Below, one piece after another: positions 1,372 through 51,898 of a stretch of 64,000 nucleotides of DNA; the stretch's first letter is position 1, and each line of letters begins with the position of its first letter. This DNA comes from Chaetoderma sp. LZ-2023a (Eukaryota > Mollusca > Caudofoveata > Chaetodermatida > Chaetodermatidae), in contig CM067373.1 in assembly GCA_034401795.1 (NCBI GenBank), positions 43,999,914-44,063,913 of the forward strand. Reading direction: 5' to 3'. The notes under the pieces are model-generated. The model ran no database searches, was not told the DNA's origin, and saw only the letters and a program-made list of their open reading frames with translations. Made by a program: the position numbers and the translations under genes.

Positions 1372-1545
1372 CTTTTTCTTGACAAATTTATCCCAGTACA
1401 TTTCCGGAAAGCAGGATGTACTGAGTACTAGTTTATCCCAGTGTGACTTGATATCGTCATCACTCGGCTGTTCTGCGATCCACAAACCCTCAAATTCTAG
1501 TTTACGTGCAATCTCTTTCTCGCGCTTGAAGATGACAAGTGGCAC
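1372..1545 (-). CDS. RyR: RyR exon 15 (S2-S3 cytosolic domain)
   Basis: Fifty-eight codons, phase 0/0; acceptor tctacag, donor gtttgt. It encodes [31 protein letters not shown] and [13 protein letters not shown], one of the best conserved RyR segments. Confidence 0.98.
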
Positions 1546-1714
1546 CTGTAGATGATCAACAAAATAAGTCACGTACAATAAAACTTGTGCAGATCACCTG
1601 CTTTACGGCCACAAATGATTGTGGTTCTTTAAGACAGGTGGTAAGCAACCACCAACATTGGCCACCTAAACATAATAAGATAAACGTTGTTAAACATTAT
1701 AGAGTGAACATTGC

Positions 1715-3616: not shown

Positions 3617-3799
3617 CTTGAGACAATAATAAGCAACAAGCATGGAGAATGAGACGACAGAATGAAGGAATGCAACGATACGCATGACTGGTTCCAGGTA
3701 ACTAACATCCTCCTCAATCATCACAGTCTCTTCCACGGCATCATCAAGTTCTGTACCGTTACCTCCATCGCCATCACTCCCGTCAGATACTTTGGATAC
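3617..3799 (-). CDS. RyR: RyR exon 14 (S1-S2 loop and helix S2)
   Basis: Sixty-one codons, phase 0/0; acceptor gtactag, donor gtgagg. A luminal acidic/Gly loop (VSKVSDGSDGDGGNGTELDD) precedes EEDVSYLEPVMRIVAFLHS and SMLVAYYCLK, matching the family's EESTGYMEP...LHT...YYCLK of S2. Confidence 0.95.
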
Positions 3800-3869
3800 C
3801 TAGTACAGCGAAACAGAAAAACAAGACATCAGTGTTACACTGACATGCTATTGGCAAAGATCTTGGCAT

Positions 3870-4745
3870 TTTGCATTTCTAAATGCAAATCTAGCTTGGT
3901 ATCAAGATCACAATGATCTTGACCTCAAAAGTCTCAATGTCTGTGCTGCTTCTCCTGCTTGATGTAACTATATGATGATGCTTAGTTCCAATAACGTGGC
4001 CAATTCTGAGAGAAAGGCCAGATGAGCTAAGCAGAACCAAACTGTTAGTTTGCATTTTATAGAAATGTTACAATGACCGTGACCTCAATGTCATTGTACC
4101 TCATATAGCTAAACATGAACAAGGTAAATTCAAGTAGGGTGAACAAATCCTGAGATATAAGGCAATATGTTGAGCCAAACTAAAAATTTAACTGAAAAGA
4201 ATAGTCTTATATTAAGGTCACAGTTAACTTGACCTTTGACCTCAACAAGATTGTGGTGCATCTGGTTGATATATGTAACCATGTGTCCAAGTTTAGTCAC
4301 AACAAACTGAACCAATCCTTAGATATAAAACGATATGTTGAACAAAACTAAAAACCTAAACAATATAGTTTTATACCAAGATCCTGGTGGCCTTGACCTT
4401 TGACCTCAATATGCTTGTGTTCCATCCGTTTGATATATGTAATCATGTGTCCAAGTTTAGTCCCAATAGGGTGAAACCATGCCGAGATATAAGAGGACAT
4501 GTTGAGCTAAACGCAAAACTTAACCGTAAAGAGTAAAGTTTTATACCAAGGTCACAGCGACCTTCAACTTTGACCACCTTCAACTTTGACCGCATGACCT
4601 CAATATCATTGTTCTCCATCCCCTCTATATAAGGAAGCATGTGTCCAAGTTTAGTCCCAATAGGGTGAAACCCTGCTGAGATATATAAAGGTAACAGACA
4701 GATGGAACCCACCGATATATGGGCGAAAATTCTAATTTTCGCCAA
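3870..4745. repeat. dispersed repeat rich in AGGTCA/TGACCT
   Basis: Four or so diverged units of about 200 bp, each with gtccaagtttagtcc..., gagatataa and clusters such as ggtcacagcgacct and tgacctttgacctc. A related block occurs at 31860-32600. No coding signal. Confidence 0.75.
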
Positions 4746-7649: not shown

Positions 7650-7746
7650 TAGAATGTATTTAACATAATCAAAGTTCTCCTTATCAACCTGAACTTCGTC
7701 TTCTTCACCAGCAGCGAGACCTCCTTCTTCTCCATATGAGCCGCCT
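7650..7746 (-). CDS. RyR: RyR exon 12 (Gly/Glu linker leading to S1)
   Basis: One base plus 32 codons; acceptor catgtatag, donor gtgagt. It encodes GGSYGEEGGLAAGEEDEVQV then DKENFDYVKYIL, corresponding to the acidic stretch just before S1. Its acceptor is the last of about 140 near-identical copies in the adjoining 43-bp array. A GA-rich tract lies 15-75 nt downstream of the donor. Confidence 0.88.
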
Positions 7747-10700
7747 CTATACATGACAAAACACACTCACATAGTTAATCAAGCCGCCTCCACACATGAC
7801 AAAACACACTCACATAGTTAATCAAGCCACCTCTATACATGACAAAACATACTCACATAGTTAATCAAGCCGCCTCTATACATGACAAAACATACTCACA
7901 TAGTTAATCAAGCCGCCTCTATACATGACAAAACACACTTGCATAGTTAATCAAGCCGCCTCTATACTTGACAAAACACACTCATATAGTTAATCAAGCC
8001 GCCTCTATACATGACAAAACATACTCACATAGTTAATCAAGCCGCCTCTATACATGACAAAACATACTCACATAGTTAATCAAGCCGCCTCTATACATGA
8101 CAAAACACGCTCACATAGTTAATCAAGCCGCCTATATATATGACAGAACACACTCACATGGCTAATCAAGCCGCCTCTATACATGACGAAACACACTCAC
8201 ATAGTTAATCAAGCCACCTCTATATATGACAGAACACACTCACATGGCCAATCAAGCCGCCTCTATACATGACAAAACACACTCATATAGTTAATCAAGC
8301 CGCCTCCACACATGACAAAACACACTCACATAGTTAATCAAGCCGCTTCTATACATGACAAAACATACTCATATAGTTAATCAAGCCGCTTCTATATATG
8401 ACAGAACACACTCACATGGCTAATCAAGCCGCCTCTATACATGACAAAACATATTCACATAGTTAATCAAGCCGCCTCTATACATGACAAAACACGCTCA
8501 CATAGTTAATCAAGCCGCCTATATATATGACAGAACACACTCACATGGCCAATCAAGCCGCCTCTATACATGACAAAACACACTCATATAGTTAATCAAG
8601 CCGCCTCCACACATGACAAAACACACTCACATAGTTAATCAAGCCACTTCTATACATGACAAAACATACTCACATAGTTAATCAAGCCGCCTCTATACTT
8701 GACAAAACACACTCATATAGTTAATCAAGCCGCCTCTATACATGACAAAACATACTCACATAGTTAATCAAGCCGCCTCTATACATGACAAAACATACTC
8801 ACATAGTTAATCAAGCCGCCTCTATACATGACAAAATATGCTCACATAGTTAATCAAGCCGCCTATATATATGACAGAACACACTCACATGGCTAATCAA
8901 GCCGCCTCTATACATGACAGAACACACTCACATGGCCAATCAAGCCGCCTCTATACATGACAAAACACACTCATATAGTTAATCAAGCCGCCTCCACACA
9001 TGACAAAACATACTCACATAGTTAATCAAGCCGCTTCTATACATGACAAAACATACTCATATAGTTAATCAAGCCGCTTCTATATATGACAGAACACACT
9101 CACATGGCTAATCAAGCCGCCTCTATACATGACAAAACACACTCACATAGTTAATCAAGCCGCCTCTATATATGACAGGACACACTCACATGGCTAATCA
9201 AGCTGCCTCTATACATGACAAAACATACTCACATAGTTAATCAAGCCGCCTCTATACATGATAAAACACACTCACATCAAGCCGCCTCTATACATGACAA
9301 AACACACTCACATAGTTAATCAAGCCGCGGCGCCTCTATACATGATAAAACACTCACATAGTTAATCAAGCCGCCTCTATACATGACAAACATCCTCACA
9401 TAGTTAATCAAGCCACCTCTATACATGATAAAACACACTCACATAGTTAATCAAGCCGCCTCTATACATGACAAACATCCTCACAAAGTTAATCAAGCCG
9501 CCTCTATACATGATAAAACACACTCACATAGTTAATCAAGCCGCCTCTATACATGACAAAACATACTCACATAGTTAATCAAGCCGCCTCTATACATGAC
9601 AAAACATACTCACATAGTTAATCAAGCCGCCTCTATACATGACAAAACACGCTCACATAGTTAATCAAGCCGCCTATATATATGACAGAACACACTCACA
9701 TGGCTAATCAAGCCGCCTCTATACATGACGAAACACACTCACATAGTTAATCAAGCCACCTCTATATATGACAGAACACACTCACATGGCCAATCAAGCC
9801 GCCTCTATACATGACAAAACACACTCATATAGTTAATCAAGCCGCCTCCACACATGACAAAACACACTCACATAGTTAATCAAACCACTTCTATACATGA
9901 CAAAACATACTCAGATAGTTAATCAAGCCGCTTCTATACATGACAAAACATACTCATATAGTTAATCAAGCCGCTTCTATATATGACAGAACACACTCAC
10001 ATGGCTAATCAAGCCGCCTCTATACATGACAAAACATATTCACATAGTTAATCAAGCCGCCTCTATACATGACAAAACACGCTCACATAGTTAATCAAGC
10101 CGCCTATATATATGACAGAACACACTCACATGGCCAATCAAGCCGCCTCTATACATGACAAAACACACTCATATAGTTAATCAAGCCGCCTCCACACATG
10201 ACAAAACACACTCACATAGTTAATCAAGCCACTTCTATACATGACAAAACATACTCACATAGTTAATCAAGCCGCCTCTATACTTGACAAAACACACTCA
10301 TATAGTTAATCAAGCCGCCTCTATACATGACAAAACATACTCACATAGTTAATCAAGCCGCCTCTATACATGACAAAACATACTCACATAGTTAATCAAG
10401 CCGCCTCTATACATGACAAAACACGCTCACATAGTTAATCAAGCCGCCTATATATATGACAGAACACACTCACATGGCTAATCAAGCCGCCTCTATACAT
10501 GACGAAACACACTCACATAGTTAATCAAGCCACCTCTATATATGACAGAACACACTCACATGGCCAATCAAGCCGCCTCTATACATGACAAAACACACTC
10601 ATATAGTTAATCAAGCCGCCTCCACACATGACAAAACATACTCACATAGTTAATCAAGCCGCTTCTATACATGACAAAACATACTCATATAGTTAATCAA

Positions 10701-13700
10701 GCCGCTTCTATATATGACAGAACACACTCACATGGCTAATCAAGCCGCCTCTATACATGACAAAACACACTCACATAGTTAATCAAGCCGCCTCTATATA
10801 TGACAGGACACACTCACATGGCTAATCAAGCTGCCTCTATACATGACAAAACATACTCACATAGTTAATCAAGCCGCCTCTATACATGATAAAACACACT
10901 CACATCAAGCCGCCTCTATACATGACAAAACACACTCACATAGTTAATCAAGCCGCCTCTATACATGATAAAACACACTCACATAGTTAATCAAGCCGCC
11001 TCTATACATGACAAACATCCTCACATAGTTAATCAAGCCGCCTCTATACATGATAAAACACACTCACATAGTTAATCAAGCCGCCTCTATACATGACAAA
11101 CATCCTCACATAGTTAATCAAGCCGCCTCTATACATGATAAAACACACTCACATAGTTAATAAGCCGCCTCTATACATGACAAACATCCTCACATAGTTA
11201 ATCAAGCCGCCTCTATACATGACAAAACACACTCACATAGTTAATCAAGCCACTTCTATACATGACAAAACATACTCACATAGTTAATCAAGCCACTTCT
11301 ATACATGACAAAACACACTCATATAGTTAATCAAGCCGCCTCTATACATGACAAAACACACTCACATAGTTAATCAAACCGCCTCTATACATGACAAAAC
11401 ATACTCACATAGTTAATCAAGCCGCCTCTATACATGACAAAACATACTCACATAGTTAATCAAGCCGCCTCTATACATGACAAAACATACTCACATAGTT
11501 AACCAAGCCGCCTCTATACATGACAAAACATACTCACATAGTTAATCAAGCCGCCTCTATACATGACAAAACATACTCACATAGTTAATCAAGCCGCCTC
11601 TATACATGACAAAACATACTCACATAGTTAATCAAGCCGCCTCTATACTTGACAAAACACACTCATATAGTTAATCAAGCCGCCTCTATACATGACAAAA
11701 CATACTCACATAGTTAATCAAGCCGCCTCTATACATGACAAAACATACTCACATAGTTAATCAAGCCGCCTCTATACATGACAAAACACGCTCACATAGT
11801 TAATCAAGCCGCCTATATATATGACAGAACACACTCACATGGCTAATCAAGCCGCCTCTATACATGACGAAACACACTCACATAGTTAATCAAGCCACCT
11901 CTATATATGACAGAACACACTCACATGGCCAATCAAGCCGCCTCTATACATGACAAAACACACTCATATAGTTAATCAAGCCACCTCCACACATGACAAA
12001 ACACACTCACATAGTTAATCAAGCCACTTCTATACATGACAAAACATACTCACATAGTTAATCAAGCCGCTTCTATACATGACAAAACATACTCATATAG
12101 TTAATCAAGCCGCTTCTATATATGACAGAACACACTCACATGGCTAATCAAGCCGCCTCTATACATGACAAAACATACTCACATAGTTAATCAAGCCGCC
12201 TCTATACATGACAAAACACGCTCACATAGTTAATCAAGCCGCCTATATATATGACAGAACACACTCACATGGCCAATCAAGCCGCCTCTATACATGACAA
12301 AACACACTCATATAGTTAATCAAGCCGCCTCCACACATGACAAAACACACTCACATAGTTAATCAAGCCACTTCTATACATGACAAAACATACTCACATA
12401 GTTAATCAAGCCGCCTCTATACTTGACAAAACACACTCATATAGTTAATCAAGCCGCCTCTATACATGACAAAACATACTCACATAGTTAATCAAGCCGC
12501 CTCTATACATGACAAAACATACTCACATAGTTAATCAAGCCGCCTCTATACATGACAAAACACGCTCACATAGTTAATCAAGCCGCCTATATATATGACA
12601 GAACACACTCACATGGCTAATCAAGCCGCCTCTATACATGACGAAACACACTCACATAGTTAATCAAGCCACCTCTATATATGACAGAACACACTCACAT
12701 GGCCAATCAAGCCGCCTCTATACATGACAAAACACACTCATATAGTTAATCAAGCCGCCTCCACACATGACAAAACATACTCACATAGTTAATCAAGCCG
12801 CTTCTATACATGACAAAACATACTCACATAGTTAATCAAGCCGCTTCTATATATGACAGAACACACTCACATGGCTAATCAAGCCGCCTCTATACATGAC
12901 AAAACACACTCACATAGTTAATCAAGCCGCCTCTATATATGACAGGACACACTCACATGGCTAATCAAGCTGCCTCTATACATGACAAAACATACTCACA
13001 TAGTTAATCAAGCCGCCTCTATACATGATAAAACACACTCACATCAAGCCGCCTCTATACATGACAAAACACACTCACATAGTTAATCAAGCCGCCTCTA
13101 TACATGATAAAACACACTCACATAGTTAATCAAGCCGCCTCTATACATGACAAACATCCTCACATAGTTAATCAAGCCACCTCTATACATGATAAAACAC
13201 ACTCACATAGTTAATCAAGCCGCCTCTATACATGACAAACATCCTCACAAAGTTAATCAAGCCGCCTCTATACATGATAAAACACACTCACATAGTTAAT
13301 CAAGCCGCCTCTATACATGACAAACATCCTCACATAGTTAATCAAGCCGCCTCTATACATGACAAAACACACTCACATAGTTAATCAAGCCACTTCTATA
13401 CATGACAAAACATACTCACATAGTTAATCAAGCCACTTCTATACATGACAAAACACACTCATATAGTTAATCAAGCCGCCTCTATACATGACAAAACACA
13501 CTCACATAGTTAATCAAACCGCCTCTATACTTGACAAAACACACTCACATAGTTAATCAAGCCACCTCTATACATGACAAAACATACTCACATAGTTAAT
13601 CAAGCCACCTCTATACATGATAAAACACACTCACATAGTTAATCAAGCCACCTCTATACTTGACAAAACACACTCATATAGTTAATCAAGCCGCCTCTAT

Positions 13701-13830
13701 ACATGACAAAACACACTCACATAGTTAATCAAGCCGCCTCTATACATGACAAAACACACTCATATAGTTAATCAAGCCACTTCTATACATGACAAAACAC
13801 GCTCACATACTTATAGTTATACTATGGAGG
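7747..13830 (-). repeat. 43-bp minisatellite (~140 copies) copied from exon 12's acceptor
   Basis: On the gene strand the unit reads ttgattaactatgtgagtg then tgttttgtcatgtatag|aggcggc, the same as the exon-12 junction. Every unit therefore ends in the acceptor and the first bases of the exon, and most also have gtgagt. Variants (catggctaatc, gacgaaacac, agctgcctc, a deletion ctcacatcaagcc) recur in the same order. The deletion recurs near 9272, 10902 and 13042, showing higher-order duplication blocks of about 1.6 and 2.1 kb. Reading one unit before exon 12 in frame ends in the unit's own TAG. Confidence 0.95.
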
Positions 13831-15423: not shown

Positions 15424-15612
15424 TAACCCTTACCACGATGACATCAAAATTAAATTAAAAGACAAATGGGTGTACATTTCTCAACAAATTTTGGTGGAAG
15501 ATATAGACAGCAGCACCATCCACGAAAATTGTTGTAAAATGTACAGCAGTTTCATTGTTATCGACACAGTAAAAGATAGAATATTGACATCAGAGAGGTA
15601 AGGGTTAATAAA
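15424..15612. repeat. hairpin element family 3, copy a
   Basis: Ends taacccttaccacgatgaca and tgacatcagagaggtaagg(gttaa). The arms gtacatttctcaac and ttgtaaaatgtacagcag pair around a centre with gcagcaccatcca. Confidence 0.85.
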
Positions 15613-17924: not shown

Positions 17925-18127
17925 TTAACACTCTGGCATCAGAATTTTTAATTTTCAAATTAAATTAAAACATGAAACGGTATCCATTTTCCAACAAATT
18001 TAGTGGAAGATGGTGTTGTCGAAGACAGCAACATTATCCAGCAAAATTATTGAAAAATGTACACAAGTTTCGTTGCTATTGACAGGGTAAAAGATAGAAT
18101 ATTGACATCAGAGTGCTATGGGTTAAC
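17925..18127. repeat. hairpin element family 3, copy b
   Basis: From agcccttaacactctggcat to tgacatcagagtgctatggg, with inner arms ccaacaaatttagtgga and gcaaaattattgaaaaatgt. Confidence 0.8.
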
Positions 18128-21518: not shown

Positions 21519-22469
21519 TTATCTTTTCAAAATCGATAAGGCGAAAGTATTCGAGGTGTCACGGAGGTAATGGTCGGTAAAACTTGACTCACAGTGCCAC
21601 TGGGCTACTGACATAATGTCATCCACAGGAACCCCATTAAACAGGGCAGTAGACTCCACTACGCCGTGAACACTGTGAGCCTTAGCTAAGTAAACTTGTT
21701 TACCTGTGGCGGATTTATGACAAAATTTAATACACTCTACAATCCACCTGTAAATGGTGTCCCTAGACGCCCTGCCATGGGGTTCAATATATGACACCCA
21801 TAACGCCGTTGGGTCCGTCCGCCATTCCTGAGTACGTTGTTTGCACCGGTTTAATGCTCGGACTGGACACCATGCTTTTGAATTAGGATCATATCTAGTC
21901 AAAGCAGGTAAAAATGTGGGTTAACCTGGATAATTCAGACTTGTTTTTTGCCGTGAAATTTATCCTAGGTAGAAGCTTAAGGACTTCCCTGTAACCACAT
22001 AACGGTCTGCCTCAGCTGAAAAGACATGAATTTCGCCTCTCCGCATTGCCGAGGCCGCAGCAATTAAAAATACAGTTTTAAGTGTCAACATTTTCATAGA
22101 AATGGAACTTAGTGGTTCAAATGGCTTATCAACTAGTACCTGGAGTACTAGAGATAAACTCCATGACGGAATCACTGGGGGATTCCTTGGTCTTAGATTG
22201 CCCATGCCTTTAATTAAAGTATTTGATGTACTTACTTCATCACTTCCCCTATAAGCCAAGAAAGGGATAAACGTCATTAAAGCTGACTTATAGTCAGCAA
22301 TAGAGTTAGGCTTGAGGCTATAGGCATCATACAGGTGACAGAGGAAATCGGCTACTACCTGAATAGATGAATTCATTGGATTAATACATCTTTTTGAGCA
22401 CCATTCTGCAAATCTGTTGATTTTATAATTATATGCTCTGGAGGTTGAACCCCTTCTGGCTTTTGCCAT
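21519..22469 (-). pseudogene. DIRS tyrosine recombinase, inactivated
   Basis: Starts MAKARRGSTSRAYNYKINRF with a core-binding domain, then the catalytic part SAMRRGEIHVFS (first Arg), AHSVHGVVES (family H-x-x-R, Arg replaced by His), QWHCESSFTDHYLRD (Tyr kept). Two in-frame TAA codons, at 21960-21962 and 21921-21923, split it. The recombinase would normally insert the circular element DNA. It was called by motif pattern; the lost second Arg and the stops make it dead. Confidence 0.85.
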
Positions 22470-22481
22470 GAATATGGATGC

Positions 22482-24257
22482 TTACTCAGAAAAGCACTCC
22501 TTAATTCTAGATTCCTTGACATCCACGCAGTCAATCTGAACATTGACGGATTGTTGTGAAGGGTCTTGCCCTGGAACATAATATTGTCCATCAGAGGCAG
22601 AGGAACCGGATTGCAGACCAGGTCTAGCAGATCTGTATACCATGATCGGCTTGGTCAAGTTGGAGTGATCAGAAGCACTTGGCACTCCCACTGTCTGATT
22701 TTCTGAAGAATTTTTGGAATCAGGATTGCTGGAGGGAATGTGTATGCATACATTCTCACCCAGCTGATAGCTAACGCATCTGTTGCGATAGCGCTCGGAT
22801 CTGGAATCGGAGAGACATACGTTGTCATCTTCGCATTTTTCTTTGTTGCGAAAAAATCTATGTTGGGTTTTCCCCAGTGGTTGAACAGACAATCCGCCAC
22901 ACATTGAATTAGTTGCCATTCCGTAGGTAAAACACTCATCCTTCGGCTCAATGAGTCTACTAGCAGATTTAACCTTCCCGGAATATGAACTGCTTTCAAA
23001 GGTGATCCTGTCATCCAGGCACCAGCAAAGCAGTTTCCATGTCATCATACAGAGACTGGGAAACTTCGTTCCGCCCTGGCAGTTTATGTAAGTAACTACT
23101 GTCGAGTTGTCTGATCGAACTAGAACAATCTTGCCCTGAACTTTCTCTATGAAATGTTCCAGGACAAGGACTACTGCTCGCAATTCCAGTAGATTGATAT
23201 GGTCTTGTGACTGATCCAGATTCCAAAGCCCTGATACTGTGGCTTCTTCCAGGCAAGCTCCCCACCCCTCCATCGATGCATCTGTATACATCGTTAACTG
23301 AGGGTGGGGAGGGGTTAGCATTAACCCCGCTAGGAGATTCTCTGTCTTCAACCACCATTGCAGGTGGTGAATTAGAGGCGCCAACACTGACACATTCGAG
23401 TCCAGTGATCCTGTACTCTGGGTCCATTGAGTCATGAGAAATAACTGGATAGGCCGCCTGCGTAAGGCCGCCTGAGGAATGACTGGTTCCAGAGAAACCA
23501 TCAACCCTAGCATTCTCAAGTAAACCCGTGCCAGGACATGACGTCTGTTGCACACTGACTGTATTAATGACATGAGTACTTGTACCCTCTCCTGAGTAGG
23601 ATAAACATATCCTATCTCTAGATCGAAGAACATTCCCAGGTAAACAAACTTCTGGGATGGAATCAGCTCTGATTTTTGAAAGTTGATTATCCAGCCTAAG
23701 TCTGTGAGTTTTCAAAACTATCTCCAGATTTGCTTATAGACTTTCCTGATTGTGTGCTTTTAACAGCCAGTCGAATACGTACGTGTGGACTGCTATGCTT
23801 CTCCTGCGGAGGTATGTTGTTATTGCAAGAACCACCCTGGTGAAGACCCGAGGAGCCGTCGAAATTCCAAAGGGTAAAACCCTGAATTCCCACGGTCTAC
23901 CCTGGAATGCGAACCGCAGGAACCGACAAAAACTCCTTGCTATTGGAATGTGGAAATAAGCATCCTTCAGGTCTATTGATGCTGTCCACATTCTCTTCTC
24001 CAACCCTACCAACACCGTTTTCACTCCATTTTGAAACTCAGTGTGTCTATGAACTTGTTCAATGGCTTGAGGTTGAGAATTGGTCTCCACCCTCCAGTGC
24101 TCTTTGTCACTAGGAACACGGTTGAATAGAAGCCTAGGCACTTTTGTGTCGGTTGAATTGCTCCTTTTAGCATGAGGGAATTTATTTCCTCCTCTATACA
24201 CAACCGTTGATCTGGATCTCTTGGATTTTGAGTCCAGATTGGAACCAGAGACAGCTA
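22482..24257 (-). pseudogene. DIRS reverse transcriptase / RNase H, frameshifted
   Basis: RT blocks GGWRPILNLKPLNKF, SIDLKDAYFHIPI, LPFGISTAPRVFT and HTYVFDWLLKAH (family Y-x-D-D replaced by YVFD). Then RNase H: MYTDASMEGWGACLEE, LLELRAVVLVLEHF and VRSDNSTVVTYINCQGG. Then GRLNLLVDSLSRR, TEWQL and PNIDFFATKKN, typical of DIRS. Frame changes near 24020, 23655, 23000 and 22660, plus stops at 24255 and 23734, show decay. Confidence 0.88.
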
Positions 24258-26424
24258 AGATGGCAGGCCTGCTATCCAGTCGGGATGATGCCCGACTGAA
24301 AGCCATCGCAAGAGTAAACGGTCCTGAGTTAACCGTTCCCACTCTTGCTTGTGGTGGGCCAACCGGCCTCCCACTGAACCACCTAGGGAGAGAGGTGGAC
24401 ATAAGTAGCGCAAGAATGGCACTGTCTCCTGGTCCAGAAGCACTGGAGTGGTTCTTACCGTGGTAACCGACCCTTCATGTATGATTACCACGACCAGATT
24501 CTTGCTCGTCACGGCCCGCGCCGCACGCACCTGAGCGGCCGGCTGTATGCGCTGGAAGAGCCTGCACTCCCCTTGCTGCTGGCTGAAGCGCGCGCAGCCA
24601 TGGCCGGCGCTGCGCTGGTGGATGGCCTCTGACCTGGCCACCGCCACCTCAAGCCTGCAGGGGATGATACGCAGGGGGAGTTGCATGAACGCGCTCTCTG
24701 CGGAGCACTTCAAATTGCTCGCACAACACCCTCTGGTTATTGACCAGGCTGACCGTCTCCTGGAGGTGCTTACATCCCTCACCTCCAAAGACACCACGAC
24801 CTGTCATAGGTGTACGCAGCAGCCTATTATCCAGGTCCTGGGATGGGTACAAGTTGTTTACGGCAAACCTGCGCCATTCCCGGACACTCCTGGTTAAACA
24901 ATCTAGAGCCAGGTTAATACCATCCTGGATGGCCCTCTGGACTGTTACCGGACTAGGCTGGCGCAATGCGGATGCTGTTACTACCCTCTGTAACAGCTGG
25001 CAGATGTGCGAAAGCGCTGCAATACACTCAAACTCTCCTCCGCATCGCGTTATTTGCCGAACACAAAACGTTCGAGCACAGCGCTCCCGTGTCAGACCGG
25101 GAGCCTGGCCGTGTATCCTCGCCTAGCGCAGCGCCGTCATCCGCGCTTGGCTTAGGGACCACACCGTACTTCTGATACTCCTCAGGTATGATGCGACACC
25201 ATTTCGTCACCTCGCGAGGGGCCTTCGCGAGACCTCCATGCACCTTGATGGACATCTCTGCCGCTGTAAACATATCTGCAATATGTTCAGCCAATGGCAG
25301 AGATGGCATAATGGCAGTAGTCGGCTTATCTGCGAGCCACGGGCGCTGGTCCCGTTGGCTGGCTGACTGTTCCACAGCAAGACCTGGCCTGAAGTTTATT
25401 AGCCAATGACAAGCGTCAGACCAGTCTTCCTCTGTGGCTACCTGCGAATGCTCGACAAGGCGCGGGCCATCGTCATCCTCCTAAGCAATCGCAGGCGTGA
25501 ACGCAGCTGAAGGAAATGATACTCCTGGCAAGCCAGAGAAAGCATGCGGGCCTGAAAGAGCAGGTATGCTAAACTTACTGGCTTGACCAGGAGCAGGTGC
25601 CATGGTATTGCGTGGAGAAAGTTTCACCACACCACGGCCCTGGCCAGAACCTGCTACACAATCGTCAAGCTGAGGTATGCAGTAATGCTGGCCATCAGAT
25701 CCAGCCCGGGCTACCTTCTGCGCCGTGAACGCTACTCCTGCGTGAGTAGTCCCATGGAAAATGTCGGCCGTGCACGTACGTCAATGTCCATGGCCACGGC
25801 GCCAGAAGGAGAACCCAACAGATAATCCTCTTCTTCCTGGCCAGAAAGATTAGACTGCAGGTCAGCGAAGAATGCTAACCCGGACTGGCCAGGAAAAGTA
25901 CCATAGGAGGTAGTGGTGGTACCTGTAGGGTGTGGATAATCCTGGCCTGATAAGCAAGCACGAGGCTCCAGCGACACCTGTCCATGAACAACCGGCGCGG
26001 CAAGCCTGCTGCCAGTGTCCTCATAGTGGACTGCCCCCCTCTAATGGGGCCACCTCTGAATCTTGGACGAAAACTCCCGATGCAACTCTGGAACCAAATC
26101 CCTAATTATCCTCTTCATCTCTCCCATCATTTCAACATGGAAGGTCTCCCTATCCATGGTGGATGAGGCCTTCCTCTTCCCCTTCTTACCAAGAACCTCT
26201 TTCCTCGTTCTTCTCTCCTCCTCAATCGGCCTCTCCTTGGCCTGTAATGATAGAAACTCAGACATTAGCTCGCCACCCACCCCCCACTGTTTACAGATGT
26301 TTAGCAATGGGCCACAAGGACTGCATTGGAAACATAAATGTGTGGTGAATCTTTCTTTCAAAAACCTTCCACAAGTATGGCAACTAGGCTTCTGAAAAAG
26401 GCCAGAAAACGAAGACAATGACAA
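24258..26424 (-). pseudogene. DIRS gag-like region, broken
   Basis: Pieces in different frames. 26424-26041 starts MSLSSFSGLFQKPSCHTCGR and has paired Cys motifs (CHTCGR, CFQCSPC), then a basic/acidic coil. Next come a linker at 25977-25732, a domain at 25375-25028 and another at 24966-24649. The end, LGGSVGGRLAHHKQEWERLT, is typical of the gag-to-RT junction in DIRS. The order is right but the frame is lost at least three times. This segment is visibly richer in G+C than the host introns. Confidence 0.7.
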
Positions 26425-27579
26425 TTTTAGTTAATAAATGAGTAACTCAAAAGCAAAATAAGGAAGAGGGAAGGTGGCCATAAAGACCACTAACTAATAA
26501 GTAAACCAGCGTTGGACAAAACTTTCTAATTGTTAATAAAGTGTAAGGCTGATTATAACATCATATCTTCAAAAATAAGAAGTTAATCTGACCCGAAAAC
26601 AATATCCCGGTGTAAGGACGAATTGTATTCATATCCAGAACATCTAACTGGAAAGGGATAGTAGAGACAGACTATGCAAACATCAGATATACAATGATAA
26701 AATGGCAGCAGATAAAAATACTAGAAGTGCCTACCGTTTTTATGCGTGTATAGGACGGGGAATTTTACCCTTAGTCAAGGGGTCCAGAAGGGACATATAT
26801 GAGTACATAGCCTTGGAACATTTCGCCGAAGTTTTCAAGTCAAAAATTACCAAAAACCACGAAATTACCACGAAAATAGAACCTCATTTGTTTGGGAAAT
26901 ATTTCGCTCACTGGAGCATAAATAATAACCAATATTGTGGCTATAATAGCTAGATGTATCACATTATGTAATGAACCTATTATTTGTAACCATAATCTCT
27001 GTAATTGCATCTCGTATCAATTGTAAAATGAAAAAACAAAACTTCAAAACACCATTTTCTACGTATTTGTTATCATTCATCCTTGATCACGTGATGGCTA
27101 CATGGGCGTGTTTGATTGGCAAACTATAACGACGTATATATTGACTGTTTGCCTATCGAAGACCCGATTCTCTGACTGGCAAACACTCAATTTCTGTAGT
27201 ATAGTTAACAGTCAAACACATTGATTCTCCGGAATGTAACGGACAACAGAATGACAGATGAAAGCAATGTCCTGATTGGTCAATCATGCGAGATTCTGAG
27301 AACTGAAGAAGAGAGTAACCAATGAAAAATCAGGTAAGGCACAGAGGTTTCTGGCTTCTGACATTCACTTGACAATGATCTTTAACTCAATTGTAATTTT
27401 AAAAAAACAAGTCAGAGAAATAAACTTTTACGTTTTATTAAACATTCTAAATCAATTTTAAACAATAGCACATATAGTCATGTATATAGTGTAGTATCTT
27501 GTTATATTATATTATATTATATAGTATAGTATATTATACTAAGCATTGCATATTATATTATGGTAGACTATATTATCAT

Positions 27580-27952: not shown

Positions 27953-29248
27953 TTAATCTATGTCCATTGGAATGTCGTCCTCCTTAAACCCAAGGAACTC
28001 TTCGTCGTCTGATAACATGTCCTCATTGTGAAAATAGGCGTCACGGTCATCCTCATCAAGCTGGGCGGTGGTGTCTGTCTCTAGCTCCTTGTCATCCTCT
28101 GTACCGTCTAATGCATTGCTAATTGAACATTTCTTGAACGATTTGATTATGATGGCTGGTTCAAGCTCTGTCCAAGCGGTGAGCAACCATTGGCAGATGG
28201 TTGCCATCTCTGGCTTACGCATGTGTCCCCCGGCAGTGAAAGTGTGACTGCCTGTCATGAGCCATTCATTCCATTGATTCCTCAACATGGTCTTGATCGG
28301 CTTATTGATAGATACGTCTAGCAGCTGGAGTATAGACGTCATGCCACCAGGAATGATTGCGATGTCGGTATTATGCTGCTGTCTGAGTGTCTTCTTCAGG
28401 GCCTCTGATCTGTGGCAATGGAAAGCATCTAGCACCAATAAACTACGTTTCTTGAGAAGGCCGCCTGGTCGCTTGCTCCATACTGTGTTTACTCAGTCCT
28501 TTGTGTTCTCATCATCCATCCATCCTTTAGGGTGTACGCGCATGATTACTCCTGGTGGGAATTTCTCTTTAGGCATGGTCTTGCGTCGGAAAACGATGTA
28601 AGGAGGCAGTTTAGTACCGTCTGCTAGGCAGCACAACATGACCGTGAATCTGTTCTTCTCGGCACCGGTTGTCTTTAATGTCACGGTTTTACTCCAGATC
28701 TTGTCTACGGTGGTGTTGTACGGCAGGTCAAATGTCAGCGGTGTCCGTTCGGCATTTCCGATGCAGTAATATTCGTTCTGTCGTCTCATCTTGATAATGT
28801 ACTTTTGAAAATTGAGGAGCTTCTCGTCTAAGTCACTGGGTAGTTTCTGGGCGATATGCATTCTGCGGCGTACAGATAAGTGATGGCGAGCCATGAAACG
28901 CTGTCCCCATGCCAGTGACGCTTTGAACTCTGTGGGGAGGATCTTCATCTCTTTGGCGATGATTCTGGTTTTAAGTCTGATTTCTGTGGTGCTAACTCCG
29001 GCGCCTTCCTTTCTTCGTTCTTCTATCCAGGCGATCACCTTCTGTTCTAGCCCTGGGAAGGCTGCAGATTTCCCGCGATTTGAACGTTTCTGCTTAGGCA
29101 TCGATTCCAGCTTGTCTTTCATCTTGCACCATTTACGGATGTTACACTCGTTGATCGTAAAATGACGCTCTGCAGTACGATTGCCATTCTCTTCTGCGTA
29201 TTTAATAATCTTCAATTTATCTCCGACGGTGTAAGATTTGCGTGACAT
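27953..29248 (-). pseudogene. pogo/Tigger transposase, one in-frame stop
   Basis: Start MSRKSYTVGDKLKIIKYAEE is a CENP-B-like helix-turn-helix; an upstream Met at 29284 is less likely. A second DNA-binding domain includes RMHIAQKLPSD, then the DDE_1 catalytic core: CIGNAERTPLTFDLPY, FTVMLCCLADGTKLPPYIVF, KRPGGLLKK, LVLDAFHCHRS (second Asp), ILQLLDVSINKPIK (third Asp), and an acidic tail. The first catalytic Asp, expected in the family's NAD-x-TP, is Glu here. A TGA at 28493-28495 interrupts an otherwise open frame of about 430 codons. Either change should kill cut-and-paste activity. Confidence 0.9.
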
Positions 29249-30699
29249 GATTGCAATGTATAACGATGTATAAAGTAGACACAAAATTTCCCAGTATATA
29301 TAGGCTCAGACCATTGTTCGGTGATTTAACTTCAAGCTATTAATAGAGCAGTAAAGGATTCATATCAAATGGTACCGCTAAATTAATAATAAAATAATAA
29401 CAGCTCATGTATTGGCTTCGCAGATTACCGATAATCCACCATGCACCACACCCACCCACCCTCACTGGACAGCCGACGATCGTGTTACGACAAGCCTTGA
29501 CTCCAAAACAATAGTGTGAGGAGAGGCGGTGCTGATAGAGTATTGTTTACTAGTCGGCCTGTTGAACACATCTGGTCTCACAAAATTTTGTGAGATTTTG
29601 CGATATTAGGAAAACAAAATATTAGTTTGTAAAGAAAGTTGAATAAAAATTGTGATTCCGGTAAATATTTCTCTTCAAACAATAATGCATAATTGGATTA
29701 TGACACGGACGACATTCCCGCTATGAAGATATTACAGAAAGGTGCTTGTTATTACGTGAAACGTTCTTTTCTTCATTTTTATGCGTGTTATGGTACCAGT
29801 TTTCGTTATTGTTAAAATTACGTCCTTGGCAAACTTTAACAGCATCTAATACACAGGTTTACGGATTTTTGGGCCCATTTTAAGCCCAAATTTAAGGTGC
29901 GTCCAATACATAATAGCGTCCAATAGTCGCATAAAAACGGTAATAGCATAACTAGAATACCTACGTCTTTAGCATAGACATACCATCCGATCTGATGCAC
30001 TGGAAGCTCCATCAAACTCTATGACCTCTTAACTCACTCCACCATTAAGGGAAGGAAGTGGACCAAGAGGGCAAAGTGAGAAGACCTTACAAGGCCTCCA
30101 ATTCACTGGGCATAGATTTTGTATTAGTTCATTCTAACATTGTTAGTAGGAAATGGAACATTGGTGGAGAGAAAAACAAACCCTCTGATGATGTGCTGTC
30201 ATTTTCAATCATAGATAGATACCTGTGGACATAAACACAAAGACAGATTAGTATTTCATAGCGCCATATAGAAATAAACCAGTTTTTTTGTGCACTTATC
30301 ACGTCTAATTGTGAGTCCCGGAAACACATTACATTGAGACTAAAACGCTAAATTAGACAAATATGTAGTTGAAATCACCTGATGATTTGGTCCTGTGCCC
30401 TCCTCTGCCGACTTCCCACGCTCGGACATGATCTCAGATGATTAATAAATTCAGTAAGTGATGAGAAACAGCAGAAAACTCTTAGAAAAAAGTAACGCAT
30501 GCGTCTCTTTGCTAATAAATTGGAAAAGAGGAAGTACTAGTCTGCACATACACGGAGGTTGGGGCTGGCATCCGCCGGACTGTCATCTGACTACCTGCCC
30601 ATTAGGGGCACCTAACTTTTTTAATCAGTGTTTATTGAAAGTCGATATTTGGGAATATCAAAGAGTGTTAGGGATGTAAGTATACTCTTGAAGTGAAAT

Positions 30700-33586: not shown

Positions 33587-33705
33587 CTATTAAAGAACAA
33601 AAACACAAGCATTAACAAACACACCAAGCTTTCACTGTTGCCTTGTATGCACTCTCAAAAAAATTTGATAGGCATGTCTATGTATAATTTCATTTGTCAG
33701 CATTG

Positions 33706-35710
33706 TTATCGTCTGCACCAATGGCAGATATTTGTCAGTGTTAGTATCTCCTGCACCAATGGCAGATATTTGTCAGCGCTGGTATCCTCTGCACCAATGG
33801 CAGATATTTGTCAGTGTTAGTATCCTCTGCACCAATGGCAGATATTTGTCAGTGCTGCTATCCCCTGCACCAATGGCAGATATTTGTCAGTGCTGGTATC
33901 CTCTGCACCAATGGCAGATATTTATCAGTGTTGGTATCCTCTGCACCAATGGCAGATATTTATCAGTGTTGGTATGCTCTGCACCAATGGCAGATATTTG
34001 TCAGTGCTGCTATCCCCTGCACCAATGGCAGATATTTGTCAGTGCTGGTAGCCTCTGCACCAATGGCAGATATTTATCAGTGTTGGTATCCTCTGCACCA
34101 ATGGCAGATATTTATCAGTGTTGGTATGCTCTGCACCAATGGCAGATATTTGCCAGCGTCGTTATCCTCTGCACCAATGGCAGATATTTGTCAGTGCTGG
34201 TATCCTCTGCACCAATGGCAGATATTTGTCAGTGCTGGTATCCTCTGCACCAATGGCAGATATTTGTCAGTGTTAGTATCCTCTGCACCAATGGCAGATA
34301 TTTGTCAGTGCTGGTATCCTCTGCACCAATGGCAGATATTTGTCAGTGCTGGTATCCTCTGCACCAATGGCAGATATTTGTCAGTGCTGGTATCCTCTGC
34401 ACCAATGGCAGATATTTGTCAGTGCTGCTATCCCCTGCACCAATGGCAGATATTTGTCAGTGCTGGTATCCTCTGCACCAATGGCAGATATTTATCAGTG
34501 TTGGTATCCTCTGCACCAATGGCAGATATTTATCAGTGTTGGTATCCTCTGCACCAATGGCAGATATTTATCAGTGTTGGTATGCTCTGCACCAATGGCA
34601 GATATTTGCCAGCGTCGTTATCCTCTGCACCAATGGCAGATATTTGTCAGTGCTGGTATCCTCTGCACCAATGGCATATATTTGTCAGTGTTAGTATCCT
34701 CTGCACCAATGGCAGATATTTGTCAGTGTTAGTATCCTCTGCACCAATGGCAGATATTTGTCAGTGTTAGTATCCCCAGCACCAATGGCAGATATTTATC
34801 AGTGTTGGTATCCTCTGCACCAATGGCAGATATTTATCAGTGTTGGTATCCTCTGCACCAATGGCAGATATTTGTCAGTGCTGGTATCCTCTGCACCAAT
34901 GGCAGATATTTGTCAGTGCTGGTATCCTCTGCACCAATGGCAGATATTTATCAGTGTTGGTATCCTCTGCACCAATGGCAGATATTTATCAGTGTTGGTA
35001 TCCTCTGCACCAATGGCAGATATTTGTCAGTGCTGGTATCCTCTGCACCAATGGCAGATATTTGTCAGTGCTGGTATCCTCTGCACCAATGGCAGATATT
35101 TGCCAGCGTTGTTTTCTCTGCACCAATGGCAGATATTTGTCAGTGCTGGTAGCCTCTGCACCAATGGCAGATATTTGTCAGTGCTGGTATCCTCTGCACC
35201 AATGGCAGATATTTGTCAGTGCTGGTATCCTCTGCACCAATGGCAGATATTTGTCAGTGCTGGTAGCCTCTGCACCAATGGCAGATATTTGTCAGTGCTG
35301 GTAGCCTCTGCACCAATGGCAGATATTTGTCAGTGCTGGTATCCTCTGCACCAATGGCAGATATTTGCCAGCGTTGTTTTCTCTGCACCAATGGCAGATA
35401 TTTGTCAGTGTTGGTAGCCTCTGCACCAATGGCAGATATTTGTCAGTGTTGGTATCCTCTGCACCAATGGCAGATATTTGTCAGTGCTGGTATCCCCTGC
35501 ACCAATGGCAGATATTTGTCAGTGCTGGTAGCCTCTGCACCAATGGCAGATATTTGTCAGTGTTGGTAGCCTCTGCACCAATGGCAGATATTTGTCAGTG
35601 CTGGTAGCCTCTGCACCAATGGCAGATATTTGTCAGTGTTGGTATCCCCTGCACCAATGGCAGATATTTGTCAGTGTTGGTATTGTCAGTACCATTGGCA
35701 GATATTTGTG
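33706..35710 (-). repeat. 38-bp minisatellite, ~52 copies, in intron 6
   Basis: Unit ctctgcaccaatggcagata then tttgtcagtgctggtatc. On the gene strand each unit reads actgac (branch-site-like), about 20 nt, then attggtgcag, an acceptor-like end. It is open in several frames over long distances only because the unit lacks stops. The array ends about 120 bp before the exon 7 acceptor. Confidence 0.95.
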
Positions 35711-38632: not shown

Positions 38633-39003
38633 CTTTTAACAAAAACATAAATATGTCTTACAGGTTAAAAATGGTTCATTATTCAGTCAGAATCAGGAAA
38701 TCATATGCAAAATCCATTATGTCAAAATTATTATGTTCAATATTTTGAAATTAATTTGACTGACAGCTACTGTTTCAATGTTGACTAAATCATTGATTTT
38801 CTATATACAATATAACTTGTCTACAAAGGACATCAAGTGACTCAACTAAAATTGCCTTTAAATGTGTCCTTATACGGAGCTGTCATTTAGCAAACAGCTT
38901 TGATTGTACACTCACAATATAGACAAACTCGCTAGCTATTCTCTCCCCATTTATAGCCAAGCCACCCACACTTTTTTTAACTTGTTGGAATTCACAGAAT
39001 GAC

Positions 39004-39404
39004 TTACCTTAATCTGTGGTTTCTCCCATTGATCAATGTGTGAGTTTCACAGAATGACCTACCTTAATCTGGGGTTTCTCTCATTGATCAATGTGTGATT
39101 GTGTGACAGAATAACCTAACTTAATCTGTGGTTTCTACCATTGATCAATGTGTGATTGTTTGACAGAATGACCTACCTTAATCTGTGGTTTCTACCATTG
39201 ATCAATGTGTGATTGCGTGACAGAATAACCTAACTTAATCTGTGGTTTCTACCATTGATCAATGTGTGATTGTTTGACAGAATGACCTACCTTAATCTGT
39301 GGTTTCTCCCAATGATCAATGTGTGATTGTGTGACAGAATAACCTAACTTAATCTGTGGTTTCTCTCATTGATCAATGTGTGATTGTTTGACAGAATGAC
39401 CTAC
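39004..39404 (-). repeat. 57-bp minisatellite copied from exon 5's 3' end and donor
   Basis: Seven intronic units follow the exonic one. On the gene strand each repeats the exon's end (HID-W/Q-KPQIK coding bases), then a donor position, then the first intron bases. Units alternate between intact donors (gtaggt, or gtaagt in the most distal unit near 39008) and a mutated form (ttaggt), a two-unit higher-order pattern. The unit is 19 codons, but reading on from exon 5 meets TGA in the first extra copy. Confidence 0.9.
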
Positions 39405-39561
39405 CTTAATCTGTGGTTTCTCCCATTGATCAATGTGTGATTGTTTGATTTCAAAGTAGACACGTTCAATCTTGTTTGCACTGCCCATGATCTCAATGCG
39501 GCCCAGATACGGGTTAAAGTAATCCAGCACACTATGCGCTTTCTCAAGCAAACGTTCCAAT
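39405..39561 (-). CDS. RyR: RyR exon 5 (core/U-motif approach)
   Basis: One base plus 52 codons, ending in phase 0; acceptor aatttcag, donor AAG|gtaggt. It reads [37 protein letters not shown] and QWEKPQIK, all RyR hallmarks. The last ~40 bp of the exon with its donor is the founder, or a member, of the 57-bp minisatellite that follows in the intron. Confidence 0.96.
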
Positions 39562-40192: not shown

Positions 40193-40354
40193 CGTGGATC
40201 ATTAGGCATATGTTCGGAGAGATTGGTCAGTAGGACAGCCATCGTGAAGCCAATGTCCTTGGCTGGGTTATGGAAGCGGTCAGTGAACTCGTGGAAGTCG
40301 ACTTTACCGTCTTGATTAGCATCCACGCACATCATAATGTAATCAATCTCCTCA
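40193..40354 (-). CDS. RyR: RyR exon 4 (second EF-hand and following helices)
   Basis: One base plus 53 codons plus two bases; acceptor tttgacag, donor gtatgc. It opens EEIDYIMMC, then the loop DANQDGKVDFHE, a full EF-hand consensus, then RFHNPAKDIGF and LLTNLSEHMPNDP, which are diagnostic RyR blocks. The upstream intron (40355 to the EF-hand exons) is about 8 kb. Confidence 0.97.
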
Positions 40355-48474: not shown

Positions 48475-48554
48475 TCTGAATACAGTTTTTGTGCTTCCAT
48501 GGCTTTTCTAAACTCTTTATGAGAAATCACACCATCGTGATTCGTGTCAAACTC
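48475..48554 (-). CDS. RyR: RyR exon 3b: first EF-hand, alternative version B
   Basis: Eighty bp, phase 0 in and phase 2 out, with a strong pyrimidine tract ending tctcccag and donor gtaaga. It encodes the loop DTNHDGVISHKE, again with every Ca2+-ligand position filled, then FRKAMEAQKLYS. The last two bases (GA) plus T of exon 4 give Asp where version A gives Arg. No stop or splice defect is visible, so this is an alternative exon, not a dead duplicate, as far as sequence can tell. Confidence 0.9.
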
Positions 48555-49369
48555 CTGGGAGAAAGAGCAGTATCCAGTCAAACAGATAGGGAATTGATAA
48601 TTATAGTCGTCTCCATATATGAGATATCTATGGTAATGTTTGTGCCCAGAGAGTATATTACTCACTCAATCTTTTGTTTTTGAAGGATTTACAGCATGAT
48701 TTTATTTTATATCAAAGACGTCTTGATTAATAATTATCTGATTTTTCTTAACGCTCTGCCAGTTGAATTTCTGTAAATTACGTTTTCCATGGAGTTTAAC
48801 CTTAGATTTGTCAAATATTTTGAAAACAATCTGACTGAAAGTTGCTGGTGGCTAAGCCACCAACAACTTTCAGCCAAATTGCTTTTAAAATATTCAGCAC
48901 ATCCAGAGTTGACACATTGAAATGATTGTCCGGTGTTTGGCGGCATCAGACAGTCAAATATAACAATATTTTTTGAAGAAGCTAAACAATATTCTCTTCT
49001 GGATATAAATTTGCCGTGTTTAGATATAACTGGTATGAAGCATAGTAATATGTACTCCTCACTGAGCATATAAACATTACGGGAGTTTACATCAATAGAA
49101 TCTAAACACTTTTTGTCCATCCACATATATGTAGAAGTTCAGAATATCAAAACAAGACACAATTCTCAAAACAACTCTGTCAATGCTCTAATCCAAATAG
49201 CCCAAGTTCTAAGAACCAGAGATAGAGTTCTGAATATTTTGAAACTAATTTGACTGGAAGCTGGTGCTCTGATAAATATCAACAGGTTTCTATAACATTA
49301 ATTTAAGTTATTGAACATATCATACTTTACATCATAAATGATATGGTCAGATAAAGTATGTAGTTGAGA

Positions 49370-49612
49370 CCCTTTAATGGTCAAGCCGGCCAAAACTTGC
49401 CTCAGCAGTGTTCTGAAAAGAATGTCCATTTGCATGCTGAGAAGACGATTTTTGTAAATTTAACACTGGACAGGCTGGAGATGCCTGGCTCGATCGCTGA
49501 GCCAATCATTCCAGTGGTAAATTTGCAAATGTAGTCTACTCTTGGCCTGCAAATAGACATACACTAAGCAGGCACGTTAATCTTCTCATACAATCTTCAC
49601 CATTAAAGGGTT
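49370..49612. repeat. hairpin element family 1, copy n
   Basis: Between the two EF-hand-exon introns and other repeats; core ctggctcgatcgctgagcca, right arm tcattccagtggtaaatttg. Confidence 0.8.
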
Positions 49613-49913
49613 CAAATTGAATTCCATATAGAAGAAAAGATTCCTTTTAATGTTTGCGTTTTTAAATTCCTTCATTTACCTTTAACCAAATCTCAAAGAA
49701 TCAAAATATATTTTAGAGAGACATATCTACAGGCTATGGATGGACATTAAGTAATTAGATCAATTCTTAATAATAATTAATAATCGTTACCCAGTTACCA
49801 GCCTTTACTGGTCACGTGCCTTAAGGGAGACAACTCAAGGTCACAGAAAGCCCTTTTCTACAGCTGGAGTTATTGCCCCAGTGTATGCGACCAATAAAGT
49901 GCCTATTACTAAC

Positions 49914-49993
49914 CGTGTGTAACATTTTTGAGCGGCCATTGCTCGCTTAAATTCCCGCGCTGAAATATAGCCATCCTTGTTGGAATCAAAGTC
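49914..49993 (-). CDS. RyR: RyR exon 3a: first EF-hand, alternative version A
   Basis: Eighty bp, phase 0 in and phase 2 out, with a pyrimidine-rich acceptor ending accag and a gttagt donor. The loop DSNKDGYISARE is a complete 12-residue EF-hand with D1, N3, D5, G6, I8 and E12, followed by the helix FKRAMAAQKCYT. The final two bases (CG) plus T of exon 4 give Arg. It is a near duplicate of exon 3b, 1.4 kb downstream, with identical length and phases. Including both or neither shifts the frame, so the two should be mutually exclusive. Confidence 0.9.
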
Positions 49994-50134: not shown

Positions 50135-50348
50135 ATCCATTACCACGCTGATGGCAATATTCTATCCTTTAATGCATCAATGGCAAAGAAACTGGTGTAC
50201 ATTTTTCAACAATTCTGGTGGACGATGTTGCTGTCTATGACAGCAACATCTTCTACCAAACTTGTTAAAAAATAAACACCAGTTCATCTTTTAATTTAAT
50301 TTGAAGATTAAAAATTTTGACATCAGAGTGGTTAGGATTATTATATTT
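50135..50348. repeat. hairpin element family 3, copy c
   Basis: Centre gatgttgctgtctatgaca then gcaacatcttctacc; outer ends ccattaccacgctgatgg and gacatcagagtggttagg. Confidence 0.8.
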
Positions 50349-50822: not shown

Positions 50823-50888
50823 CAGGAATGCCTCTGAAGATGTCAAATCCTTCATCTTGAGGAAAATGTCAAAGAATTTCAGAATCAT
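50823..50888 (-). CDS. RyR: RyR exon 2 (helix before the EF-hands)
   Basis: Twenty-two codons, phase 0/0, acceptor tattttag and donor gtatgt. It encodes ILKFFDIFLKMKDLTSSEAF, corresponding to the family block LKFFDMFLKLKD...SEAF. It leads directly into the first EF-hand exon; because it ends in phase 0 it can join either of the two alternative copies. Confidence 0.95.
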
Positions 50889-51745: not shown

Positions 51746-51898
51746 CTCAACATTGACAGAAGACTCGACCAGCGTGTCCACCATCTGTTTTCCAATTGGT
51801 CCATTCATGACGTTACCCTCAAGCATGGAGAGAAGCATAATCATCATATCTTTCTGAAGTTTCATGAATTCACGCAATAAATCCAGCTGCTCGACATC
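51746..51898 (-). CDS. RyR: RyR exon 1 (core solenoid helices)
   Basis: Fifty-one codons, phase 0 at both ends, acceptor ...gatag and donor gtaga. It reads [26 protein letters not shown] and [12 protein letters not shown], matching the highly conserved block just upstream of the RyR EF-hands. The preceding exon was not found in the remaining 12.1 kb, so the upstream intron is at least that long. Confidence 0.95.

Follow-up and report, generated by a model that had tools for sequence, protein, structure and literature searches.

Two tandem exons offering alternative versions of EF-hand 1 in a mollusc ryanodine receptor gene

The ryanodine receptor gene and its surroundings

The minus strand of the window, by which we mean the whole 64-kb stretch of DNA analysed here, carries the C-terminal part of a ryanodine receptor (RyR) gene. 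The spliced 160-residue translation across its EF-hands finds RyR3 as the best match in the PDB (9c1e, 1.9e-58), followed by RyR2 and RyR1. For comparison of the gene at larger scale the window was joined with 50 kb downstream and 210 kb upstream, a region in which 5000 of the 324000 bases are N. All 59 of the 59 retained matches (overlaps dropped) to the RyR of the chiton Liolophura (P0012) lie in order in this region, and the Haliotis RyR (P0003) is matched from residue ~1778 to residue 5280 of 5284, spread across ~288 kb. The gene thus has collinear homology over this part of the protein together with the EF-hand pair and the C-terminal channel that define a RyR. The exons discussed here, numbered for this analysis only, are listed in Table 1 with the hairpins of the adjacent introns and the match to the S2-S3 loop.

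Table 1. Features of the RyR gene in the window (positions are those of the window).
Feature	Position	Strand	Remarks
RyR exon 1 (DVEQLDLL...SVNVE)	51746..51898	-	96% identity over 51 aa to the RyR of Sinanodonta woodiana (P0002)
RyR exon 2 (MILKFFDIFLKMKDLTSSEAFL)	50823..50888	-	phase 0 at end, donor GTATGT
Strong hairpin, 2-3a intron	50175..50300		dispersed fold-back repeat, further copies at 17959-18082 and 15449-15557
Exon 3a, EF-hand 1 version A (DFDSNKDGYISAREFKRAMAAQKCYT+R)	49914..49993	-	class A signature (loop 7 Y, loop 10 A, junction R)
Strong hairpin, 3a-3b intron	48795..48905		dispersed fold-back repeat, best further copy at 33153-33070
Exon 3b, EF-hand 1 version B (EFDTNHDGVISHKEFRKAMEAQKLYS+D)	48475..48554	-	class B signature
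RyR exon 4: end of EF1-EF2 linker, EF-hand 2, next helix	40193..40354	-	phase 2 in, starts T GAG GAG ATT
RyR exon 5 (...EKPQIK)	39405..39561	-	sequence match
S2-S3 loop match, putative contact partner of EF-hand 1	1381..1578	-	contact predicted from RyR1 (PMC10832476)

A low-threshold search for duplicated exons in the fetched two thirds of the RyR gene listed some further candidates, in which the ends of two exons are repeated or the matches are weak or overlap one another, but no second full-length duplicated exon pair; nor was a third copy of EF-hand 1 (EF1) found in the 8.1-kb intron between 3b and 4 among tblastn matches above 25 bits. A 57-bp tandem array of eight copies (38994-39448, minus strand) overlaps the end of exon 5 at 39405. 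Its unit consists of the 3' end of exon 5 with the splice donor, and 57 is a multiple of three; some copies retain a GTAGGT or GTAAGT donor and others have in-frame stops. A second case of repeated exon ends in the gene lies at ~3391-3846 on the minus strand, where short repeats of the end of another RyR exon, MIPLHGLPRY and variants of it, are found downstream of that exon.

Mobile elements and satellites are found alongside these arrays. A broken retroelement at 21522-26430 (minus strand), which we take to resemble the DIRS type, contains frames with the N-terminal domain of a phage integrase and an RNase H-like match too weak to reach the Pfam cut-off, and a tRNA-Gly call inside it (25041-25134) is probably spurious. 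A Tc5/pogo-type transposase (27956-29305, minus strand) has the domains HTH_Tnp_Tc5, CENP-B_N, and DDE_1 and one in-frame stop at ~28494. Two minisatellites lie within the span of the RyR gene, one with 142 copies of a 43-bp unit (7739-13813) and one with 53 copies of a 38-bp unit (33692-35709), and the near-perfect fold-backs of Table 1 and their further copies form MITE-like families.

The exon pair and its reading frames

Between exons 2 and 4 lie two exons of 80 nt each, 3a with the acceptor ..TTTGCATAACCAG and the donor CG/GTTAGT, and 3b with the acceptor ..CTCTTTCTCCCAG and the donor GA/GTAAGA. The first-pass annotation had described them as tandem exons with good splice sites that are entered in phase 0 and left in phase 2, and coordinates and phases are as described, with GT-AG borders in both. 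The two are adjacent, homologous, equal in length and phase, and have their own splice sites, as is expected of a tandem-duplicated pair, and both donors score 5.6 bits. Open AG-80nt-GT blocks number 94 over the two strands of the window, and only two of them, 3a and 3b, contain an EF-loop pattern.

Each exon encodes the 12-residue loop of EF-hand 1, DSNKDGYISARE in 3a and DTNHDGVISHKE in 3b. The ligand positions 1, 3, 5, 9, and 12 and the glycine at position 6 are filled in both (D1, N3, D5, G6, S9, E12), in agreement with the complete ligand sets claimed earlier, and both isoforms exceed the Pfam EF-hand_1 cut-off with EF1 as the best stretch; judged by these ligand sets, both versions should bind Ca2+. 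The loops differ at positions 2, 4, 7, 10, and 11, and the residue at the junction differs as well, since exon 4 opens with a T at 40354 that completes CG to an Arg codon and GA to an Asp codon; both differences had been predicted. At the nucleotide level 3a and 3b agree at 46 of 80 positions, and at the protein level at 15 of 26; with the junction included, they differ at 12 of 27 residues. Agreement by codon position is 18, 19, and 9 of 26 for the first, second, and third position. The third positions are thus near random while much of the protein sequence is kept, which indicates that the copies are old and under amino-acid constraint.

The spliced translations 2-3a-4 and 2-3b-4 are open. 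When both exons are skipped, the first codon of exon 4 becomes TGA, and when both are used, a TGA is reached inside 3b, at the tenth codon counted from the 3a-3b junction codon. The frame arithmetic put forward earlier, according to which use of both exons or of neither is unproductive, is thereby borne out, and on these reading frames it is very likely that 3a and 3b are used in the RNA in a mutually exclusive manner. Stops that come so early, at once upon skipping and within ten codons upon double use, would also suit a pair that serves chiefly to set the amount of channel, with regulated double inclusion or skipping giving transcripts that are degraded. For that purpose, however, a single skippable exon would suffice, and two diverged versions that match two classes of mollusc proteins (see below) would be unneeded, and we regard such a role as the main function of the pair as highly improbable. 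In the preferred reading, in which exactly one of the two exons enters each transcript, the stops would merely remove faulty products.

How exclusion is kept can be narrowed down by the introns. The intron between 3a and 3b is 1359 nt long, which argues against steric exclusion by a short intron, and the splice sites are GT-AG sites of U2 appearance, which argues against U2/U12 incompatibility. With AG exclusion zones of 56 and 54 nt, which are ordinary, and an intron of this length, the gene also lacks the hallmarks of exclusion by a distant branch point as in OGDH and tropomyosin. Competing RNA pairings, which the first-pass annotation had proposed to look for in the 3a-3b intron, found no support, as the two strong hairpins of the flanking introns have copies elsewhere in the window. 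Unconstrained predictions of duplexes between whole introns were uninformative, and among splicing-factor motifs a single TGCATG downstream of 3b (48341) is too weak to be of use. Exclusion is most likely kept by regulated choice of splice sites together with decay of the two faulty products.

Two classes of EF-hand 1 in mollusc receptors

For comparison with other animals, a set of 240 RyR proteins was compiled from the best 120 of 1867 matches (exon 1 scored) and the best 120 of 131 matches of a partial-protein search, and the 27-residue segment corresponding to exon 3 was cut from each, with gaps in few segments. A search of short proteins gave 138 matches, of which 120 were listed, and the 44 inspected were mostly genomic reading frames of exon 4 and of little use for exon 3. 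Searches for relatives in viral_contigs and genome_contigs confirmed 0 of 26 and 0 of 515 pattern matches, respectively. Class counts refer to 21 named mollusc RyR proteins; the molluscan-looking P0021 and P0025, neither of which has Ala at loop position 10, were left out.

An Ala at loop position 10, which defines class A, is present in seven of the 240 listed proteins, which all come from molluscs and all combine it with a junction Arg (Haliotis rufescens, Elysia crispata, E. chlorotica, E. marginata, Mercenaria, Mya, and Ostrea). The remaining 14 mollusc proteins make up class B, in which loop position 10 is occupied by His, Pro, Cys, Ser, or Leu and the junction by Asp, Glu, Gly, or Asn; they stem from Sinanodonta, Gigantopelta, Mytilus, two Biomphalaria, Bradybaena, the chiton Liolophura (the sole chiton protein), Tegillarca, Pomacea, Lottia, Littorina, Mactra, Pinctada, and Octopus. 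The residues at loop position 7 likewise do not overlap between the classes among the 21 proteins (Y or A in class A vs C, F, T, V, or W in class B). An Arg at the junction does not by itself mark class A, as it also occurs in P0071 (horseshoe crab) and P0282 among the 240 listed. The brachiopod Lingula and the annelid Capitella are class B-like. At the three diagnostic sites (loop 7, loop 10, and junction) exon 3a reads Y, A, R and falls into class A, and exon 3b reads V, H, D and falls into class B.

In a tree of the short segments, 3a groups with Ostrea (SH-aLRT 77.7, UFBoot 97) within a weakly supported cluster of class A and Lineus, and 3b is placed outside that cluster. Identity of 3a is 15-21 of 27 residues to class A and 13-17 to class B. 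For 3b the respective values are 18-23 (the best being Mya with 23) and 17-22 of 27, so that 3b is about equally near both classes and its assignment to class B rests on the diagnostic sites and not on overall identity. Both classes are spread across the molluscs, in a database that shows one representative per cluster (e.g., 41 members behind the Haliotis entry), and with one representative per cluster none of the other species is represented by both classes among the listed proteins. The two-version pair is probably not peculiar to the Chaetoderma genome.

The class A proteins also bear on the question whether one of the copies, 3a being the likelier, has become a relic or rarely used exon, so that the gene in practice makes one protein. 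The branch of 3a in the exon tree is indeed the longer one (0.20 vs 0.16), and several of its sites deviate from the remaining class A sequences. Exon 3a has nonetheless remained open, with a donor score similar to that of 3b and with all ligands and the class A signature kept, and class A segments are present in annotated RyR proteins of seven other molluscs, which makes disuse of one copy very unlikely. Two versions in use remain the reading that we follow.

Whether the classes follow the history of the genes was addressed with a tree of the 21 mollusc RyR proteins and three outgroups, in which EF1 was masked (4842 columns). On this tree the class label changes five times, and shuffled labels change 6.0 times on average (range 2-7). 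The label is thus nearly unrelated to the gene tree, by which classes A and B are rejected as clades or paralogous genes, and this is the pattern expected if annotation picks one of two exons. The same can be seen in proteins that are hardly different next to the exon. In the 76 residues of exons 2 and 4 that flank the 27-residue segment, the three Elysia (A) do not differ from the two Biomphalaria and Bradybaena (B), while the exon differs at 10 of 27 residues; likewise, with 0 of 76 flank differences, the exon differs at 9 of 27 residues between Haliotis (A) and Gigantopelta (B), at 9 between Mercenaria (A) and Mactra (B), and at 10 between Mya (A) and Mactra (B). Over all pairs with 0-2 flank differences the exon differs on average at 9.6 residues across classes (n = 35, range 6-11), compared to 3.9 within class A (n = 9, 0-9) and 4.6 within class B (n = 17, 0-10). 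Among pairs with 3-5 flank differences the means lie closer together (8.6 across classes, 8.0 within A, 6.3 within B). Permutation of the labels gave 3 of 5000 as extreme values, a test that is partly circular because the labels themselves are taken from EF1 residues.

An origin of the two exons from merged haplotypes or gene copies, that is, an assembly artefact or two paralogous genes, is at odds with several of these observations. Exon 3b has a single DNA match in the 2.44-Gb assembly (in a search that scores the best candidates only), the 34 differences in 80 nt between 3a and 3b go far beyond haplotypes, the gene is collinear, and the classes in other molluscs do not sort as paralogues; we consider such an origin extremely unlikely. 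A true pair within one gene is assumed in what follows.

In a tree of the assembled matches (2729 columns) the RyR of the window is sister to that of the chiton Liolophura with a support of 1.000, and among 27 proteins compared its identity is also highest to Liolophura (74.8%), followed by Tegillarca (72.3%). From this position next to the chiton RyR, the exon duplication probably predates the living molluscs. The split between Aculifera and the other molluscs is the deepest among molluscs, and if the host is an aculiferan, class A occurs on both sides of it. Presence of the pair before the last common ancestor of living molluscs is most likely, judged by the protein classes, and version B looks like the ancestral type with version A as the derived copy. 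The occurrence of class B in the one chiton protein and in Octopus counts against the account of the pair given here. What is new here is that signs of the two versions, in the form of classes, are seen in RyR proteins of clams, oysters, and snails, which suggests a switch about as old as the molluscs. The reading of the first-pass annotation, a mutually exclusive pair that exchanges EF-hand 1 of a RyR, is well backed by gene structure, stop codons, and two classes of mollusc proteins; taken together these point to a real and old exon pair with matching mollusc classes, for which an effect on function is plausible.

Possible effects on the channel and comparison with known systems

The role of the RyR EF-hands is still argued. 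By the aligned ranges of the PDB match, exon 3 corresponds to residues 4079-4105 of rabbit RyR1. In RyR1, E4075, Q4078, and D4079 pair with R4736 in the S2-S3 loop of the neighboring subunit and K4101 pairs with D4730 in the same loop, and the mutations K4101E and K4101M weaken Ca2+/Mg2+-dependent inhibition (PMC10832476). The equivalents here are E (4075) and L (4078) in exon 2, D in 3a or E in 3b at 4079, and K at 4101 in both versions. Around the latter, the exit helix and linker read AAQKCYTR in 3a and EAQKLYSD in 3b, and the exon product carries per subunit a net charge (K+R minus D+E) of +2 in 3a and -2 in 3b. In the relatives, five distinct class A sequences have net charges of 0 to +1, and twelve class B sequences of -1 to -2. 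The EF loops are treated as the site of RyR inhibition, and the effect of an exchange of EF1 between RyR1 and RyR2 deviates from that predicted by ion affinity (PMC12119028).

The first-pass annotation had proposed channels that differ in how they sense cytosolic Ca2+. As the six chelating positions are kept in both versions, the change may act more on inhibition and on the coupling to S2-S3 than on ion binding; as K4101 is also the same in both, the functional difference could be small. By analogy with RyR1, we infer that exchanging the exons adjusts Ca2+/Mg2+-dependent inhibition by way of the S2-S3 contact and the shift in charge, without loss of Ca2+ binding. It may instead be that the pair is real and used but leaves Ca2+/Mg2+ control unchanged, and that the swap alters a protein-protein surface (e.g., for calmodulin-dependent regulation or another partner) or the fine assembly of the channel. 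This would agree with the retention of all chelating residues in both copies, with helix and linker holding most of the differences, and with accounts that calmodulin regulation requires the EF-hand motifs and that RyR2 can be activated by cytosolic Ca2+ without the EF-hand domain (PMC8301844). The changed surface, however, is the S2-S3 contact of RyR1, which bears on Ca2+/Mg2+ inhibition (PMC10832476), and we consider an exchange with no effect on this inhibition unlikely, though a serious alternative.

The account that we prefer, with an effect on inhibition, would run as follows. An ancient tandem duplication provides the mollusc RyR with alternative versions of EF-hand 1, of which splicing would pick exactly one; use of both or neither leads to the early stops described above and presumably to decay of the transcript. 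The swap alters the exit helix, the EF1-EF2 linker, the net charge, and the residue at RyR1 position 4079 near the K4101 helix, and since this helix contacts the S2-S3 loop of the neighboring subunit, the choice of exon would set the strength of inhibition by cytosolic Ca2+/Mg2+, so that one gene could make release channels with tissue-specific shut-off behavior. We hold this joint account, from an ancient exclusive pair with one exon per transcript to differing inhibition by tissue, to be probable. For the wider proposal, that an EF-hand 1 splice switch older than the divergence of molluscs is kept in chiton-like, bivalve, and gastropod lineages and yields two kinds of channel that differ in Ca2+/Mg2+ shut-off, the chances appear evenly balanced. 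If true, a mollusc would obtain from one gene two kinds of release channel, a role filled in vertebrates by three RyR genes; a single RyR gene is described for invertebrates (PMC7644089). The pair would amount to a natural exchange experiment, with two long-kept versions of EF-hand 1 in an otherwise identical channel and all ligands retained, so that the part played by EF-hand 1 in Ca2+/Mg2+ inhibition could be tested directly. It also offers an explanation at the level of splicing for the way in which a single RyR gene of a mollusc might meet the needs of different muscles and neurons.

Alternative exons are known from other RyR genes. The insect exons a/b are a mutually exclusive pair (PMC3989282, PMC3787966, PMC8301844), and in Tribolium such exons, 19a/19b, are said to be conserved in other insects (PMC4204029). 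The insect a/b pair, however, lies in SPRY2 (residues ~1135-1173; PMC3989282, PMC3787966), while the mollusc pair lies in EF-hand 1, at RyR1 4079-4105, so that 3a and 3b, by their place in the protein, do not appear to be the insect a/b exons. In Caenorhabditis elegans, the one RyR gene unc-68 is likewise diversified by alternative exons with tissue roles, but the work on it concerns alternative first exons and DR2 exons; five further alternative exons are mentioned, and the term EF-hand is absent from that text (PMC7644089). Tandem exon duplications are annotated in vertebrate RYR3, fly Ryr, and worm unc-68, the main text giving no place for them (PMC9741552). Ten fish species have at least two RyR entries among the matches listed, with EF1 identical within each species, so that at least there the tandem events of that study would not concern EF1. 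The available text on scallop RyR mentions splicing only for XBP1 (PMC13362341). In searches of the open-licence literature, no EF-hand swap in a RyR was found reported among the entries listed; subscription papers may report one.

The mollusc pair would add another old tandem exon switch in a Ca2+ channel. Outside the RyR family, CaV2 channels have the alternative exons 37a and 37b in the C-terminal EF-hand. These too are alternative exons in the EF-hand region of a Ca2+ channel, but of another channel family and one of the plasma membrane. P/Q-type channels are named together with the actinins and OGDH (PMC9177970). In alpha-actinin (ACTN1), exons 19a and 19b swap an EF-hand as well, yet there one version loses Ca2+ binding and the brain form uses both exons (PMC4435478), whereas here both versions keep their ligands, which does not suggest an on/off switch for Ca2+ of the actinin type, and double use ends in a stop. 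Exons 4a and 4b of OGDH are, like those proposed here, mutually exclusive and give isoforms with differing Ca2+ response; in OGDH, however, they concern a DADLD site and are separated in birds and mammals by an intron of 118-131 nt with distant branch points, in contrast to the 1359 nt between 3a and 3b (PMC7969005).
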